DNA from: Cellulomonas fengjieae
Lineage (GTDB): Bacteria; Actinomycetota; Actinomycetes; Actinomycetales; Cellulomonadaceae
Assembly: GCF_018388465.1 (NCBI RefSeq)
Contig: NZ_CP074404.1
Span: forward strand, 2,914,001-2,978,000
Direction of reading: 5' to 3'
DNA: 64,000 nt
Below are positions 15,472-21,067 of this stretch, one piece after another. The notes under the pieces are model-generated. The model had not been told where the DNA came from. It ran no database searches and saw only the letters and a program-made list of their open reading frames with translations. The position numbers were made by a program, and so were the translations under genes. Every line of letters starts with the position of its first letter. Positions within the stretch are counted from its first letter, which is position 1.

Positions 15472-15629
15472 GAGCCCCGCGCAGGCGCGGGGCTCGTCAG
15501 GCGGATCGGCACAGGCCGAACCATCCGGGAACTCTCACCTGCGCTGGCCTCCGCTGCTGCGGGACTTCGGGCGATCGGGCGTGAGCACTGCGTGCGCACG
15601 ACACGGTCGACGACCGGCGGTCTTTGGGT
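15472..15629 (-). ncRNA. ribosomal protein L10 leader with attenuator hairpin
   Basis: The transcript starts near CAAAGACCGCCGG and contains GGAGGCC...GCGCAGGTGAGA, features of the L10-L12 binding leader. It ends in a 10-bp stem (15472-15495, loop CCTG) followed on the sense strand by CTTTCGTTTG, which looks like an intrinsic terminator placed before the rplJ start. Binding of excess L10-L12 could favour this terminator. The leader family is established; the exact boundaries are my estimate. Confidence 0.7.
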
Positions 15630-15673: not shown

Positions 15674-18364
15674 TCAGGCCGCCCCGTGGGCGCTGAACGT
15701 GCACCAGTTGACGAAGCCCTCGGGGCTGTCGCGGTCGATCCGGCCGCGGGCCTCGTGCAGCGCCCGCGCGAGGGTCAGGCCGCGCCGGACCCCTCGGTGC
15801 AGCTCGAGCATGAGGTCGACCGCCGCGACGTCGGGCACGGCCGCGATGCTGGCGACGGCGCCCGCGGTCCCCTGGGCCAGCATGGCGCTCACGAAACCGA
15901 GCACCTCGTCCCCCGCGTACGCCACGTCGGCCCCCGCGTGGCACGACGCGAGCACCAGCCGGTGGGGCGCGACGCCCGCGCCGTGCAGCTCCTGGACGGT
16001 CACCGGCCCGTCCGCCAGGCGGAGCGAGGAGAACATCGGGTTGTCCGCACGGGGTGAGCCGTGGCAGGCGAGGTGGGCGAGGTCCGCGTCCGCCAGGGCG
16101 GTGAGCACGTCCTGCGCGCGCGCGTGCTCGCCGGACAGGACCCGGGCACCGGCGTGGACCGCGCGGAGCGCCTCGACCTCCTCGCGCGCCCCGGCGAGGT
16201 CCGGCCCGGCGACCAGGACGGTGCCGCCCTCACCCGCCCGCGCCTGAGCCGACCTGCGCGTGCGGACCCAGAACGTGGCGGACGGCGCCTGCGCGAGCGG
16301 GCCGTCGTGCAGGCACGACCACGGCACCCCGTGCAGGAGGCCGACGGGGACGACGACCAGCTCGTCCCGGGGGTCGACCCCGAGCGGCGCGACCAGCAGG
16401 GCGCGCAGCCGGGCGATGCGCAGGTCGGCGCTGATCCGGGCGGCCTCGGCGGCGGTGCTGCCGCGGGGGTTGGCCAGCCGGCGCAGCGCGAACAGCAGCG
16501 GGCGCAGCTCGGCGGCGATGTCCTCCACCGGGCCGAGCTCGACGATCCTCGCCCGGCGCGGCTCGACGACGACCGCGACCAGCCGACCAGCGAACCGCCC
16601 GAACTCCACGAGCGTCCGCCCGTCCAGCGCAGCCCGGGTGGCGGCGATGCCCGGCACCTGGGGCAGCGCCACCATCGCCGGAACGCCGTCGTGCCCGAGC
16701 GACCAGTCGACCACCGGCACGCGCACGTCGGCGCCCCGCGGTGAGGCCGCAGCGGCGCGCACGGCCTCGGGCGGTCCCGACGTCGCCGCAGGGAGCCGGT
16801 CGGCGAGCGGGACGTCCGAGAAGGGCAGCCGAGTGCTCAGCGCCGCCGCGCGGGTGCGCTCCATCCAGGCGAGCGTCCGCGCGGGCGACGCCTCGGCCAG
16901 CACCACACCCAGCCCGATCTCCCCGAGCTCGGCTCCGTGCCCCGACGCGAGCGCCCGCAGCTCGATGGTCGGCAGGGCCGACCGGTGCACGGCCAGGTCC
17001 CGCAGGCCGGCCCTGCACTCGGCGAGCACGGCGGCCGGGCGGCCCGCGGCCCGCTCGGCCAGGGCCCCCGCGAGCCGGCCGCGCAGCCGCACGAGCACCT
17101 GCCCGCGCCCGGCGAGCGCCCGCGCGCGGGTCAGCGCGGGCATCGCGGACCGCGGGCGGGACAGGTCCAGAGCCACCCGTCCCGCCACGAGGTACGCCTC
17201 CACGGCACTGTGCAGGTCGCCGGAGCCCTCCAGCCGAGCGGCGGCGCGCCGCGCGACGGCGAGCTGCTCGAGCCCGGCCGTCCCCGCCTGCAGCCGCGCC
17301 TCGACGCCGATCAGCTGCGCCCTGGCCGCCCACGTGGCCCGGTGCTGCTGCCGGGCGGCACGAGCGGCCTCGTCCGCGAGCTCCCCGGCCTCCTCGTGGC
17401 GCTCGGTCAGCAGCCGGATCCGGGCGAGCCGCAGCTGCGCCTCCGTGAGCATCAGGCCCAGGCCCGCCGCCGCCAGCTCGTCGACCGCCCGCGCGGCCGC
17501 GGCGGCCGCCTCGGGCAGCAGCCGCAGGTCGGTCATCGCGTCGGCGTACTCGGTGTAGTACTCCCCCAGCGGGATGCCGGCGTCGAGGTAGGCGCGGGCG
17601 GACCGCTCGAAGTCGGCCATGCCCTCCTGCAGGCGCCCCGCGCGGACCGCGATCCAGGCGCGGGTCTGCACCAGCGGAGCCTCGAGCGTGGGTACCTGGG
17701 AGGTCGCGAGCGCGACCGCGGCCTCGGCCGTCCTGATCGCCTCCTCGTACTCGCCCCGCTCGGCCAGCACGAGCGCCAGGTTGTTGGTCGCGATCGCCGC
17801 CGACCGCGGCTCCAGCCCTCCCGCCGCGAGCAGCGACCGGTAGCGCTGCTCCGACTCCTCGAGCCGCCCGGCATGCTGCTCCACGATCGCGAGCGAGAGC
17901 CCGACGCGTCCGAGGAACCGGGCCCGCTCCGCCGGCTGGACCTCCGGCGCCCGGCTCATCGCGACGATCGCGGCGTCCAGGTCCCGGGCCGCGGCGCGGG
18001 CGTCACCGAGGTCGTGCAGGACCGAGGCGCGGCTGGCGAGCACCCGCGCGGCGACGTCCCACACGCTGTGCCGGCGGGTGATCCGGACGGCCTCGTCGAG
18101 GAGGGGACGCGCGGACGAATCGTCCCACCGCGCCCGAAATGTCGCAGCCAGCAGCCGTAGGCTCAGACCGAGCAGCTCGGGGTCCTTGCGGGTGCGCGCC
18201 ACCGTCACGACGGCCTGCGCCTGGGGCTCCACGGACCGCGGGTCGACGTCGACCGCGTCCATCAACGAGCTCACATGTATCAGGAGGTCGGCTCGGGCCT
18301 CTGGTAAGGCGTAGGGCTCGTCGTTCGGCGCTGATGGCTCGACGCCGGGGCCGGACGGGCACAT
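15674..18364 (-). CDS. TPR-CHAT cysteine protease
   Basis: An 896-residue cytoplasmic protein with no signal peptide or membrane segment. Residues about 30-560 are Ala/Leu/Arg-rich helical repeats of TPR type. Residues about 600-890 form a CHAT (caspase-HetF-associated with TPRs) domain. The catalytic dyad is intact: H768 in LACHGSP and C808 in LASCHAG. CHAT proteins are clan CD proteases; TPR-CHAT proteins such as Csx29 of type III-E CRISPR are proteases kept inactive until a trigger binds. The ATG at 18364 is preferred over 18409 because a TAGACT -10 box ends seven bases before it and no SD is present. Divergent from a subtilase-sigma operon 32 bases away, suggesting a joint function. Substrate and trigger are unknown. 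Confidence 0.88.
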   Translation of the reverse strand: MCPSGPGVEPSAPNDEPYALPEARADLLIHVSSLMDAVDVDPRSVEPQAQAVVTVARTRKDPELLGLSLRLLAATFRARWDDSSARPLLDEAVRITRRHSVWDVAARVLASRASVLHDLGDARAAARDLDAAIVAMSRAPEVQPAERARFLGRVGLSLAIVEQHAGRLEESEQRYRSLLAAGGLEPRSAAIATNNLALVLAERGEYEEAIRTAEAAVALATSQVPTLEAPLVQTRAWIAVRAGRLQEGMADFERSARAYLDAGIPLGEYYTEYADAMTDLRLLPEAAAAAARAVDELAAAGLGLMLTEAQLRLARIRLLTERHEEAGELADEAARAARQQHRATWAARAQLIGVEARLQAGTAGLEQLAVARRAAARLEGSGDLHSAVEAYLVAGRVALDLSRPRSAMPALTRARALAGRGQVLVRLRGRLAGALAERAAGRPAAVLAECRAGLRDLAVHRSALPTIELRALASGHGAELGEIGLGVVLAEASPARTLAWMERTRAAALSTRLPFSDVPLADRLPAATSGPPEAVRAAAASPRGADVRVPVVDWSLGHDGVPAMVALPQVPGIAATRAALDGRTLVEFGRFAGRLVAVVVEPRRARIVELGPVEDIAAELRPLLFALRRLANPRGSTAAEAARISADLRIARLRALLVAPLGVDPRDELVVVPVGLLHGVPWSCLHDGPLAQAPSATFWVRTRRSAQARAGEGGTVLVAGPDLAGAREEVEALRAVHAGARVLSGEHARAQDVLTALADADLAHLACHGSPRADNPMFSSLRLADGPVTVQELHGAGVAPHRLVLASCHAGADVAYAGDEVLGFVSAMLAQGTAGAVASIAAVPDVAAVDLMLELHRGVRRGLTLARALHEARGRIDRDSPEGFVNWCTFSAHGAA

Positions 18365-18371
18365 CTTTCGG

Positions 18372-18401
18372 AGTCTAGGCCGACCAAGGAGCGCATGTGA
18401 G
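18372..18401 (-). promoter_or_regulatory. candidate promoter of the TPR-CHAT gene
   Basis: Minus-strand CTCACA (18396-18401), 18-base spacer, TAGACT (18372-18377), placing the transcription start at or next to the ATG at 18364. The -35 element overlaps the GTG start of the divergent subtilase gene, so the two genes cannot have independent upstream regions. Confidence 0.5.
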
Positions 18402-19803
18402 TACGTCATCCGAGGAACCGCGTACGCCCGGACGACCGTTCGGACGCGACTACCGGTCAGGAGCCGCGGTCGAGCCCGTCCCCGCGCGCGTGCGGCAGCG
18501 CGTGCAGCGCCAGGTCGACGAGCTGGCGCAGCGTCGCACCGACGCCGGCCTGCGCCGCCGCCTGAACACGGCCGTCCAGGAGCGGTGGAGCCTGCGGCAC
18601 GCCAGCCGGCTGGACGTCGTCGTCAAGGACAACGGGCTCGAGACGATGGTGGTGACCGGCGAGATCCTGGTGACCGAGTCGTCCTGGCAGGACCGCGGTG
18701 TGCGGACGTACGTGCAGCGCCGGGGCCTGGCCGAGGCCGAGCTCGGCTGCGTCGACCTGGAGAGCCGCCTGGTCCGCCTGGTGAGCACCGTGCCGACCAC
18801 GACCGAGCACCTCGAGGACACGGTCGGTGAGCTGCGCGCGCGAGGCTTCGCCGCCTCGCTCACGCACGTCGCCCCGCTGGGCCCCATCGTCAAACCGTTC
18901 AGCGGGGTCGCCGTCCCGACGATCGGCGACTTCGGCTCGTACGGCCCCTACGCGACGGGCGACGGGGACGGCGCCCGGGTGGCCGTCATCGACACGGGCA
19001 TCGACCCCACGCCGCGCGGCGACGGCTGGCTGACGGGCATCCCGCGGATCGCCCAGGACGATCCCGCGACGCACGCGGTCGACATCAACGTCGACCCGCT
19101 CGACGCCGATCCCCTGGACGGGTTCCTCGACTTCTCCGCCGGGCACGGCACGTTCGTCAGCGGCGTCATCGCCCAGGTGGCGCCCACGGCCGACATCTCC
19201 ATGTACCGGGCGCTGGGGACGGGCGGGACCGGCAGCGAGATCGACGTCGCGTGCGCGCTCGTCCGGGCGGTGCGCGACGGCGCCCAGGTGGTCAACCTGT
19301 CGCTCGGCACGCAGACGCAGTTCGACCAGCCGTCCCTCGCCATGGCGGCGGCGCTCGACGTCGTCGGTGAGATCGAGCGGGAGCGCGGCGAGCACGCCCT
19401 GATCGTGGCGGCCGCCGGCAACTTCGGTGACACGACGCCGACCTGGCCCGCCGCGTTCCGGCGCGTGGTCTCGGTGGGGGCCCTGACCGCTGACCTGCGC
19501 CCGAGCGCGTTCTCGAGTCACGGCTGGTGGGTGGACTGCTCGGCGGTCGGGGAGGGTGTGCTGTCCACGTACGTGGAGGGCGAGCAGTCCCCCGACTTCA
19601 CCGAGGACCCCGAGACGTTCCCCGCGGACTCGTTCTCGCGCTGGAGCGGGACGTCGTTCGCGGCACCGCAGGTGGCGGGCGCCGTGGCACGCCTCATGCA
19701 GGACCGGGGACTGTCGGCACGCCAGGCCTATGTCGAGCTCCTGGCGACCGGCCGCCCCATGCCGGACTTCGGCCAGACGTTCGAGATCCTGCCGGGGGTC
19801 TGA
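18397..19803 (+). CDS. S8 family subtilisin-like serine protease, cytoplasmic
   Basis: 468 residues. The catalytic triad is complete: D199 in VAVIDTGID, H250 in SAGHGTFVSG and S420 in SGTSFAAPQVAG. There is no signal peptide, so it is predicted to act inside the cell, unlike most bacterial subtilases. The first 170 residues are an Arg-rich segment plus a mixed alpha/beta region that I do not recognise; it may be a prodomain or a sensor. The GTG at 18397 has an AAGGAG SD five bases upstream. It heads an operon with a sigma factor and a small protein and faces the TPR-CHAT gene. Proteolytic activation between the two proteases is a reasonable guess, nothing more. Confidence 0.88.
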   Translation: MSTSSEEPRTPGRPFGRDYRSGAAVEPVPARVRQRVQRQVDELAQRRTDAGLRRRLNTAVQERWSLRHASRLDVVVKDNGLETMVVTGEILVTESSWQDRGVRTYVQRRGLAEAELGCVDLESRLVRLVSTVPTTTEHLEDTVGELRARGFAASLTHVAPLGPIVKPFSGVAVPTIGDFGSYGPYATGDGDGARVAVIDTGIDPTPRGDGWLTGIPRIAQDDPATHAVDINVDPLDADPLDGFLDFSAGHGTFVSGVIAQVAPTADISMYRALGTGGTGSEIDVACALVRAVRDGAQVVNLSLGTQTQFDQPSLAMAAALDVVGEIERERGEHALIVAAAGNFGDTTPTWPAAFRRVVSVGALTADLRPSAFSSHGWWVDCSAVGEGVLSTYVEGEQSPDFTEDPETFPADSFSRWSGTSFAAPQVAGAVARLMQDRGLSARQAYVELLATGRPMPDFGQTFEILPGV

Positions 19804-19870
19804 CGTGCTGGGCACAGTCGCCGCCGCGCGACATGATGGCATCCGAGTCGCAGGTCGAAGGGATGCGGAC

Positions 19871-20500
19871 ATGGACGACGAGGATCCGTACCGCCGGTGG
19901 GACGCCCCCGCCCTCGTGCAGGGCGCCCTGGACGGTGACTCGAGGTCGTGGGGGGAGATCGTCCGTCGGCACACCCCCGCCGTCGTGGCGCGGGTGCGCC
20001 AGTTCCGCCTCACGCCCGACCAGGCCGAGGACGTCGCACAGACCGTGTGGCTCAACCTGCTGGAGAACCTCGACAAGCTCCGCGACCCGCACGCGCTGCC
20101 CGGGTGGATCGCCACCACCGCACGCCACGAGTGCATCCGGGTCACCAACCTGAACCGGCGGACCGTGCCCGTCGACCCGCAGGGCGGGCGGCTGGACGGT
20201 GTGTCCGACTCGGACCTGGACGCGCGGATGCTCGCGGTCGAGCGCGAGCAGGCGCTGCGTGAGGGGCTGGCCGAGCTGCCGGCCCACCAGCGCGAGATCC
20301 TGCTCCTGCTCGCCGTCGACCCTCCCCTCAGCTACGCGGAGATCGCCGAGCGGCTCGGGGTACCCGTCGGCTCGATCGGCCCCACCCGGGGTCGTGGACT
20401 AGCGCGCCTGCGTCAGACGGCCGCGATCAAGAAGTACGTGCGGGCCTGGTCGGCCGCCACGGCAGACGAAGGAGGACGCGATGTCCTGGCACTCGGATGA
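19871..20500 (+). CDS. ECF-like RNA polymerase sigma factor
   Basis: 209 residues with sigma70 region 2 (about 25-90; DQAEDVAQTVWLNLLENLDKL and a WIATTARHECIR segment) and region 4 with its helix-turn-helix (about 135-190; LPAHQREILLLL, SYAEIAERLGV). There is no region 1.1 or 3, as in ECF sigma factors. The ATG at 19871 has a GAAGGGA SD; an in-frame GTG at 19805 is possible. It lies 67 bases after the protease gene and overlaps the next gene by 20 bases. No classic zinc anti-sigma gene is adjacent, so its control may involve the neighbouring proteases or the 175-residue protein. Target promoters are unknown. Confidence 0.88.
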   Translation: MDDEDPYRRWDAPALVQGALDGDSRSWGEIVRRHTPAVVARVRQFRLTPDQAEDVAQTVWLNLLENLDKLRDPHALPGWIATTARHECIRVTNLNRRTVPVDPQGGRLDGVSDSDLDARMLAVEREQALREGLAELPAHQREILLLLAVDPPLSYAEIAERLGVPVGSIGPTRGRGLARLRQTAAIKKYVRAWSAATADEGGRDVLALG

Positions 20501-21008
20501 CCGCGCCCACACCCCCGGACCGCGCGGCGACTCACCCTGGCCCGACGACGAGGCGCTCGGCGCCGAGCTGGTCGCGGCCCTCGCCGAGGCGGAGACCTAC
20601 GACCGGGTCGTCGCCAGCGCCGAGACGGCGTTCCACGCACACCGCGGCATGATCGAGGCGCGTTCCGGCCTCGAGCTGGACCTGCTCCTGCTCGAGCTCG
20701 TCTACGACTCGCAGGCGCTCGATGCGCCCGTCGGCGTCCGCGACCGGTCGGGCGGGTCGTCGCGGACCCTCGTCTTCGAGGGGCGCGACCTCGGCGTCGA
20801 GGTGGAGGTGGAGCCGACGTCGATCGAGGGCCAGCTGCTGCCCGCGACGCGGGGGCGCGTCACGTTGCGCACCCCGGAGCGGAACGTCGCCACGATCGAC
20901 ACGGACGACGTCGGGTACTTCCGTTTCGACGTCCGCCCGGACGGGCCGCTGCAGCTCGAGTGCGTGAGCGCCGGCGGCACGTGCGTCACCCAGTGGCTGC
21001 CGTTCTAG
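20481..21008 (+). CDS. 175-residue protein coupled to the sigma factor, function unknown
   Basis: Overlaps the sigma gene by 20 bases and has its own strong SD (AAGGAGG), so synthesis is coupled to the sigma factor. Residues about 20-75 are acidic and helical (DDEALGAELVAALAEAETYD). Residues about 90-175 alternate hydrophobic and polar residues as in a beta-sandwich, resembling carboxypeptidase-regulatory or transthyretin-like folds, ending in GGTCVTQWLPF. No transmembrane segment or HxxxCxxC zinc motif, so it is not a standard ZAS anti-sigma factor. It could be an anti-sigma, a protease substrate or an adaptor. Annotated from position and composition only. Confidence 0.7.
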   Translation: MSWHSDDRAHTPGPRGDSPWPDDEALGAELVAALAEAETYDRVVASAETAFHAHRGMIEARSGLELDLLLLELVYDSQALDAPVGVRDRSGGSSRTLVFEGRDLGVEVEVEPTSIEGQLLPATRGRVTLRTPERNVATIDTDDVGYFRFDVRPDGPLQLECVSAGGTCVTQWLPF

Positions 21009-21024
21009 CCACCCCGCACGTAGG

Positions 21025-21067
21025 ACGACGAAGGCCCGGTCCGCAGGGGGGACCGGGCCTTCGTCGT
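21025..21067. terminator. bidirectional terminator between the sigma operon and rplA
   Basis: A perfect 18-bp stem with a seven-base loop. It lies 16 bases after the 175-residue protein stop on the plus strand and 13 bases past the rplA stop on the minus strand, so it closes both the inserted module and the secE-nusG-rplKA unit. Confidence 0.88.

Follow-up and report, generated by a model that had tools for sequence, protein, structure and literature searches.

Four genes between rplJ and rplA

We analyzed a 64,000-nucleotide stretch of the Cellulomonas fengjieae chromosome (contig NZ_CP074404.1, positions 2,914,001 to 2,978,000; hereafter the window, in whose own coordinates positions are given), in which four genes at 15674-21008 lie between the ribosomal protein genes rplJ and rplA. 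They encode a cysteine protease with tetratricopeptide-repeat (TPR) and CHAT domains, a subtilase, an extracytoplasmic function (ECF) sigma factor, and a 175-residue protein that we refer to as SP. A first-pass annotation, made from the DNA alone, had placed four genes at this site, and the open reading frames (ORFs) together with Pfam matches of the genes and their flanks confirm that all of them are present there. rplA and rplJ are usually neighbours; in the window, the module is bounded on one side by rplA (L1; 21081-21851, minus strand; PF00687) and on the other by rplJ (L10; 14887-15465, minus strand; PF00466), followed by rplL and rpoB, and these flanks are housekeeping genes.

The CHAT gene probably occupies 15674-18262 on the minus strand, and its product matches PF12770 (E = 2.2e-29) and TPR_12. 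The CHAT domain spans about 15695-16408, with the catalytic codons at 16061-16063 (His) and 15941-15943 (Cys), and these residues are kept in 67/67 and 68/68 aligned relatives, respectively. The start of the gene is uncertain, with candidate ATG codons at 18409, 18364, and 18262. We prefer 18262, which gives an 862-residue protein with H734/C774 as the catalytic pair, because a longer ORF would put a promoter-like site at 18276-18302 inside the coding region. In four related loci (L025, L026, L028, and L029), 15-24 bp likewise separate the promoter-like site from the estimated start of CHAT; in three others (L027, L032, and L034), the estimated start would run past that site. The residues given in the annotation, H768/C808, are correct when counted from the ATG at 18364.

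The subtilase gene runs on the plus strand from a GTG at 18397, with an AAGGAG site upstream, to 19803. Its 468-residue product matches PF00082 (E = 2.3e-31), and the annotated triad D199/H250/S420 is invariant or nearly so, with Asp kept in 71/71, His in 72/72, and Ser in 71/72 aligned relatives. In the predicted structure, a prodomain-like fold at about residues 72-158 (18610-18870) is followed by a linker at residues 159-192, and the protein is accordingly modelled as a zymogen that combines a prodomain-like N-terminal domain with an intact catalytic triad. This predicted fold resembles that of pro-subtilisins (e.g., 3whi) in having both a prodomain and a catalytic domain, but the window subtilase, unlike those proteins, has no visible secretion signal, and its gene follows a promoter-like motif.

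Downstream on the same strand, the sigma factor gene (19871-20500, starting with ATG at 19871) encodes a 209-residue protein that matches PF04542, PF08281, and TIGR02937 and lies in an ECF54-type context. It overlaps by 20 nt the SP gene (20481-21008, plus strand, starting with ATG at 20481), whose product is a candidate anti-sigma factor. A hydrophobic N-terminus is absent from all four window proteins, in agreement with the earlier statement that neither protease has a signal peptide, and none of 75 subtilase, 78 CHAT, 80 SP, and 98 sigma hits passed a simple hydropathy limit applied to the first 70 residues from estimated starts. The annotation had also described a protease operon, of which the subtilase-sigma-SP unit stands, whereas CHAT falls outside it because its gene is divergent and on the minus strand.

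Recurrence of the module across Actinomycetota

A scan of named genomes with a sigma alignment yielded at least 594 stretches, at least 563 of them relatives, and the best 80 were kept as sigma loci. All four families occur in 56 of these 80, and among the 57 loci in which sigma is flanked by 5.5 kb or more in each direction, SP is found in 50, CHAT in 47, subtilase in 46, and all four in 46. The remaining 24 sigma loci comprise 6 with SP only, 5 with SP and CHAT, and 13 with none of the three partners. In 396 genomes drawn across the phylum, SP was detected in 53 (E <= 1e-3) and full-length CHAT in 48 (E <= 1e-50), with both present in 45 (Fisher p = 2.9e-47, a value in which relatedness is not corrected for). 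The three genomes with CHAT only hold diverged SP and sigma genes beside CHAT, and four of the eight with SP only have marginal SP matches (G204, G347, G408, and G579). We further collected 40 stretches (the phylum loci), which represent 43 of 63 listed SP places, mainly the strongest and with G000 left out, and 26 of them carry all four families. SP adjoins sigma in 65/80 sigma loci and 34/40 phylum loci.

A single-sequence SP search, which found SP in 11 of 198 genomes of the order, underestimates this distribution because five of eight re-examined "negatives" (G130, G158, G102, G186, and G008) hold diverged modules. The conserved co-occurrence that the annotation had proposed looking for was borne out well beyond one strain, in 56 of 80 sigma loci and 45 of 396 genomes, which rules out a single-strain oddity, and the four genes almost certainly form a functional module. 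A chance gathering of unrelated genes at a tolerant insertion site would fit the fact that the space between rplA and rplJ is nearly empty in some relatives, but these four families are found together at numerous other sites in the phylum, and we have ruled this explanation out as having a negligible probability.

The module consists of two blocks, sigma with SP and CHAT with subtilase. In seven genomes, SP and CHAT are apart, with CHAT elsewhere in the assembly (G428, G280, G312, G497, G505, G355, and G382), and CHAT is beside subtilase in five of the seven (G312, G280, G355, G382, and G505); of these assemblies, only that of G312 consists of one contig, and the CHAT gene of G382 lies about 25 kb away on the same contig. 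CHAT and subtilase are on opposite strands in 54/56 named loci but in only 14/26 phylum loci, and gene order varies, with all four genes running in the same direction in L021 and L022. In L084 (9070-11502), a sigma-SP pair is followed by a CHAT protein of another architecture, with a CHAT and a CBM9-like domain and a PADLOC SAVED_CHAT match (E 1e-18).

At the chromosomal site itself, rplA lies beside the module in 17 of 18 Cellulomonas or same-family loci, and rplJ does so too in 15 (L036 and L037 are cut or short, and L013 and L024 are probably the same contig). The exception is L069 from Cellulomonas cellasea, where a complete module with SP on the strand opposite to sigma lies away from ribosomal genes; since this locus has neither rplA nor rplJ, the module can lie elsewhere. 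Eight of the 11 same-family genomes first scored as SP-negative were examined. G197 and G088 have a nearly empty site, where rplA and rplJ matches end about 330-360 bp apart; G074 has no module and a site that is not of the near-empty type; G102, G186, and G008 hold all four genes at the site; and G130 and G158 hold the variant described below.

The annotation had raised cell suicide as a possible outcome and suggested measuring phage resistance. In an anti-phage or abortive-infection system of this kind, activated CHAT and subtilase would kill the cell, and each protease has a counterpart in defence: the CRISPR (clustered regularly interspaced short palindromic repeats)-linked protease of Craspase is described as a TPR-CHAT protein (PMC10028731), and catalogued defence systems include subtilases, judging from PADLOC and NCBIfam model names. 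However, we obtained no PADLOC match for CHAT, sigma, or SP and only generic-subtilase and weak IetS matches for the subtilase, and the same was true of L066, a locus from Geodermatophilus amargosae. We found no positive evidence for suicide or phage resistance, and the housekeeping flanks and the fixed place beside rplA in all but L069 of the 18 loci above also argue against them, making a defence function quite improbable.

A promoter-like motif before the sigma and serine protease genes

To search for a shared regulatory element, we counted pairs of a 5-mer and a 4-mer upstream of sigma (87 loci) and upstream of subtilase or CHAT (66 loci). GTATC-N17-CTCC was the top pair in both sets, with 16 and 12 loci, respectively, although in the second set it was tied with its own one-base shift. 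GC-rich pairs were found in as many as 14-15 loci in the random control windows of this first count, which weighs against the motif, and its case therefore rests on a spacing control rather than on the raw count. GTATC-N17-CTCY gave 74 matches in the 88 discovery loci, compared with 2 to 30 at other spacings between 10 and 25 (the 30 being at spacing 18), and the reversed pattern gave none. The 40 phylum loci, which were not used in discovery though some of their genomes may be of the same species as discovery loci, gave 35 matches at N17, compared with 0 to 14 at other spacings and 3 for the reversed pattern.

The placement of the motif is selective. Of the 74 discovery matches, 44 sit 20-330 bp before subtilase (22) or sigma (22), in 41/88 loci, and none sits before CHAT; in the phylum loci, 8 matches precede subtilase and 3 precede sigma, in 11/40 loci, and CHAT again has none. 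The CHAT genes with 330 bp of upstream sequence numbered 61 in named loci and 31 in phylum loci, and single copies before CHAT were seen at spacings of 15 and 24. In five later loci, a copy lies 136-265 bp before the estimated sigma start, with a spacing of 17 in four and 18 in one. Two points count against this picture: the exact N17 motif is not at the expected place in 47/88 discovery and 29/40 phylum loci, and where all genes run the same way, as in L021 and L022, CHAT might be served as well by a motif that precedes sigma.

The 3.99 Mb genome of the window holds a single exact copy of TGTATCA-N16-CTCY, as TGTATCA-N16-CTCT at 18276-18302 on the plus strand, pointing at the subtilase-sigma-SP unit, and this site is the probable target of the module's own sigma factor. 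Allowing one mismatch gave 8 sites, compared with 28 for the reversed control, and the seven others are therefore not credible. The placement of the motif is what an autoregulated ECF promoter would look like, and the sigma factor probably drives the subtilase and itself.

We also searched 25 chosen genomes, most of them picked for the sigma gene or the module and with L031 left out, and found the exact pattern 42 times, compared with 9 for the reversed control. It is missing from five of the 25 (G130, G158, G397, G599, and G600), although the module is present in at least three of these (G130, G158, and G397). Fourteen of 20 chosen sites away from module genes sit 35-127 bp before a predicted gene, a count that has no background control. 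A Pfam scan of some of these downstream genes identified an AAA_16 ATPase, a Wzz-like protein, an M64 peptidase, and a MoxR-type ATPase, with no common theme. Two may be conserved distant targets: in two Nonomuraea (L200:3016 and L201:2519), the motif precedes a gene for an AAA_16-type ATPase by 58 bp, and in two Kribbella (L206 and L208, Pfam-scanned in one), it precedes similar, Wzz-like genes by 63 and 66 bp. Separately, partnerless Geodermatophilus sigma genes (L041:8596-11397 and L039:8540-11554) adjoin a convergent gene, a haem peroxidase in L041, with GTATC-N17-CTCC at its 5' end.

In G130 and G158, which belong to the same genus as the window, CHAT, SP, and sigma are at the site, and a divergent gene for a trypsin-like protein with a GDSG motif replaces subtilase (Trypsin_2, E 1.3e-5 and 3.6e-5, just short of the Pfam cut-off). 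Motif copies, as TGTATCT, lie 102 and 56 bp before the trypsin-like ORF, and further copies, one with spacing 18, precede the estimated starts of sigma by 240 and 265 bp; these two are the loci with this gene among the five later ones. That the serine protease can be swapped under a similar motif supports an output role for it. The same trypsin-like proteases (L223:6861-8660 in G158 and L224:6876-8696 in G130) carry many PFTEPFTEP repeats, along with ALGADP/ALGTNP units, in a C-terminal tail, and related GDSG proteins are found near modules in L164 and L155.

SP and a candidate circuit of protease, anti-sigma, and sigma factors

The AlphaFold model of SP (pLDDT, the predicted local distance difference test, 85; pTM, the predicted template modelling score, 0.50) consists of a helix at residues 23-79, a flexible linker at 80-94, and an immunoglobulin (Ig)-like beta domain at 95-169, with residues 85-87 (pLDDT below 50) inside the linker. 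Within this variable linker, Arg87 (GVR; codon at 20739-20741, plus strand) is kept in 114/119 homologs and in 5/5 further loci and is a candidate CHAT cleavage site. It is lost in L171, L082, and L090, which come from genomes without a CHAT match (G569, G583, and G584) and account for three of the five SP-bearing genomes that lack CHAT. SP itself matched no Pfam family above the cut-off. Fold searches, in which the helix was barely tested, returned Ig-like domains, none with a Foldseek E below 0.001, and a profile search of PDB sequences gave three matches, none named Csx30, the presence of which in that set was unchecked. Partial correlations between distance matrices of 58 loci, calculated without a null, were 0.50 for sigma and the SP helix, 0.32 for sigma and the SP beta domain, and -0.02 for the two SP domains, while the SP helix and CHAT reached 0.25, below the value for the helix and sigma.

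From these sequence patterns, we infer that SP is an anti-sigma factor, that CHAT cuts it at Arg87, and that the sigma factor reads the motif. SP would hold the ECF sigma factor through its N-terminal helix, and the TPR-CHAT protease, which has no motif copy before it, would sense a signal through its TPR part and cut SP after Arg87, in the linker between the helix and the Ig-like domain. Weakened or further degraded, SP would then free sigma, which would transcribe subtilase-sigma-SP from the TGTATCA-N16-CTCY promoter in positive feedback. The output would be a cytoplasmic serine-protease zymogen, namely the subtilase here and a trypsin-like protease in some relatives. The annotation had proposed protease activity leading to sigma release by one conserved unit, and both the unit and this general direction remain our best reading; its wiring does not, since the motif would make the subtilase an output of sigma rather than a step before it, with CHAT acting ahead of the two. 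We give even chances to a soluble protease/anti-sigma/sigma circuit of the ECF54 kind as the overall reading, and SP as an anti-sigma factor cut by CHAT is likewise balanced between right and wrong. SP, rather than the subtilase or sigma, is the most likely substrate of CHAT. We also considered a conserved CHAT cleavage site in the subtilase linker and rejected it, as no conserved Arg or Lys stood out in residues 159-192.

Several observations weigh against the proposed circuit. Arg87 is retained in two of the five CHAT-less genomes (G459 and G573), and two of the five SPs without it come from CHAT-bearing genomes (L046, in which an adjacent residue is Arg, and a second SP copy in L086). Of the three informative genomes without CHAT, G583 and G584 were assembled from metagenomes, and their completeness is not stated. 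The window SP had no match to an anti-sigma family in Pfam or NCBIfam up to E = 1, and the 13 of 80 sigma loci without any of the three partners, some of which are on short contigs, do not fit a fixed circuit. L160 and L165 have extra SP copies beside protease genes that lack their own sigma, with repeated SP, subtilase, and CHAT in one cluster and one sigma only.

These last loci are what would be expected if SP were instead an adaptor or an executed substrate of the CHAT/serine-protease pair, with sigma merely supplying the proteins. Ig-like domains often serve in binding, and the genome-wide co-occurrence of SP and CHAT, which holds even where the two genes are separated, is as this explanation would have it. 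Nevertheless, SP is usually coupled to sigma rather than to CHAT (65/80 and 34/40 loci), and its helix co-varies more with sigma than with CHAT in the null-free comparison above, and we therefore regard an adaptor role as rather unlikely.

The association of CHAT, subtilase, and carboxypeptidase genes is already in print for ECF54, and the locus therefore probably belongs to that known kind. ECF54 and ECF282 are listed as controlled by proteolysis without an anti-sigma factor, with only the ECF282 member AntA said to be shown experimentally, and for ECF54 this control was proposed from its conserved carboxypeptidase, subtilase, and CHAT neighbours (PMC8999054, citing Huang 2015 and Casas-Pastor 2021). 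The window sigma fits the ECF54 architecture, with sigma2 and sigma4 only (PF04542 and PF08281), and the neighbour set agrees with CHAT, subtilase, and a carboxypeptidase-like gene, the last through weak PF13620 CarboxypepD_reg matches, under the cut-off, in two of four SP relatives scanned. The ECF54 reference sigma factor is SFT86700.1 from Geodermatophilus amargosae (PMC8999054), and L066, the locus from that species, has all four genes and a sigma 53% identical to that of the window. The four-gene association did not appear in the titles and abstract openings of the literature searched or by term look-up in eLife 52696 and PMC8103513, and PMC8999054 was the only relevant ECF54 paper found.

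On the published proposal, as stated in section 3.3 and table 2 of PMC8999054, there is no anti-sigma factor, the proteases degrade sigma itself, and SP would be an accessory carboxypeptidase-related protein. The weak PF13620 matches speak for it, but neither Pfam nor the model gives SP a protease domain. PF13620 is a non-enzymatic regulatory-like domain. SP is also the most constant neighbour of sigma, carries a near-invariant Arg in a variable linker, and has a helix that tracks sigma divergence, and the subtilase is more likely an output than an off-switch because it often follows the presumed sigma promoter. We thus find sigma degradation without an anti-sigma factor unlikely and prefer to read SP as a probable anti-sigma factor. 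Relative to PMC8999054, which names the same CHAT, subtilase, and "carboxypeptidase" neighbours, our analysis reads the "carboxypeptidase" gene as encoding a predicted helix-linker-Ig protein with Arg87 as a candidate cleavage site and adds the TGTATCA-N16-CTCY motif and the modelled subtilase zymogen with its trypsin-like replacement.

The proposed circuit would work like the CRISPR-linked CASP circuit, with no evidence of CRISPR parts such as Cas7-11 (gRAMP) or a CRISPR array, although no search was aimed at them. According to the account in PMC10028731, the TPR-CHAT protease Csx29 cuts Csx30, a sigma inhibitor whose N-terminal part binds the ECF factor CASP-sigma, and binding motifs are found in its own locus. 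The type III-E CASP/Craspase system is thus alike in its TPR-CHAT protease, and its sigma inhibitor binding by an N-terminal part and its own-locus motifs would parallel what we propose for SP. However, the window CHAT is far under the Csx29 cut-off (NF041237, 14.2 of 300 bits), and we do not claim CRISPR-family membership; the window module also has a second, serine protease. In CalpL/CalpT/CalpS, an ECF sigma is likewise held by an anti-sigma factor that a protease cuts, but the enzyme there is described as a Lon protease with a SAVED sensor for cyclic tetra-adenylate (cA4), a different protease class (PMC11417357). Tentatively, and with less confidence than we give to the circuit itself, there may be a widespread non-CRISPR cascade in which a TPR-CHAT sensor, a new soluble kind of anti-sigma factor (helix, Arg linker, and Ig-like domain), and an ECF54 sigma lead to an interchangeable serine-protease zymogen, with Csx29/Csx30/CASP-sigma as one CRISPR-harnessed case of a wider chromosomal principle. 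If CHAT does cut SP after Arg87 and thereby frees sigma to act at TGTATCA-N16-CTCY, transcription in Actinomycetota would be under the control of caspase-type proteases outside CRISPR as well, and it would become possible to study how the CASP circuit arose.

Further features were noted at the edges of the module. A strong hairpin with a T-rich stretch at 15472-15495 on the minus strand, between CHAT and rplJ and without an Rfam match, may act as the terminator of CHAT or belong to an rplJ leader. An inverted repeat between SP and rplA (21027-21065), read directly and not listed by the terminator scan, is a possible two-way terminator. In Cellulomonas terrae (L026:9090-10959), more subtilase-like ORFs lie between SP and rplA, one of which matches PF00082.

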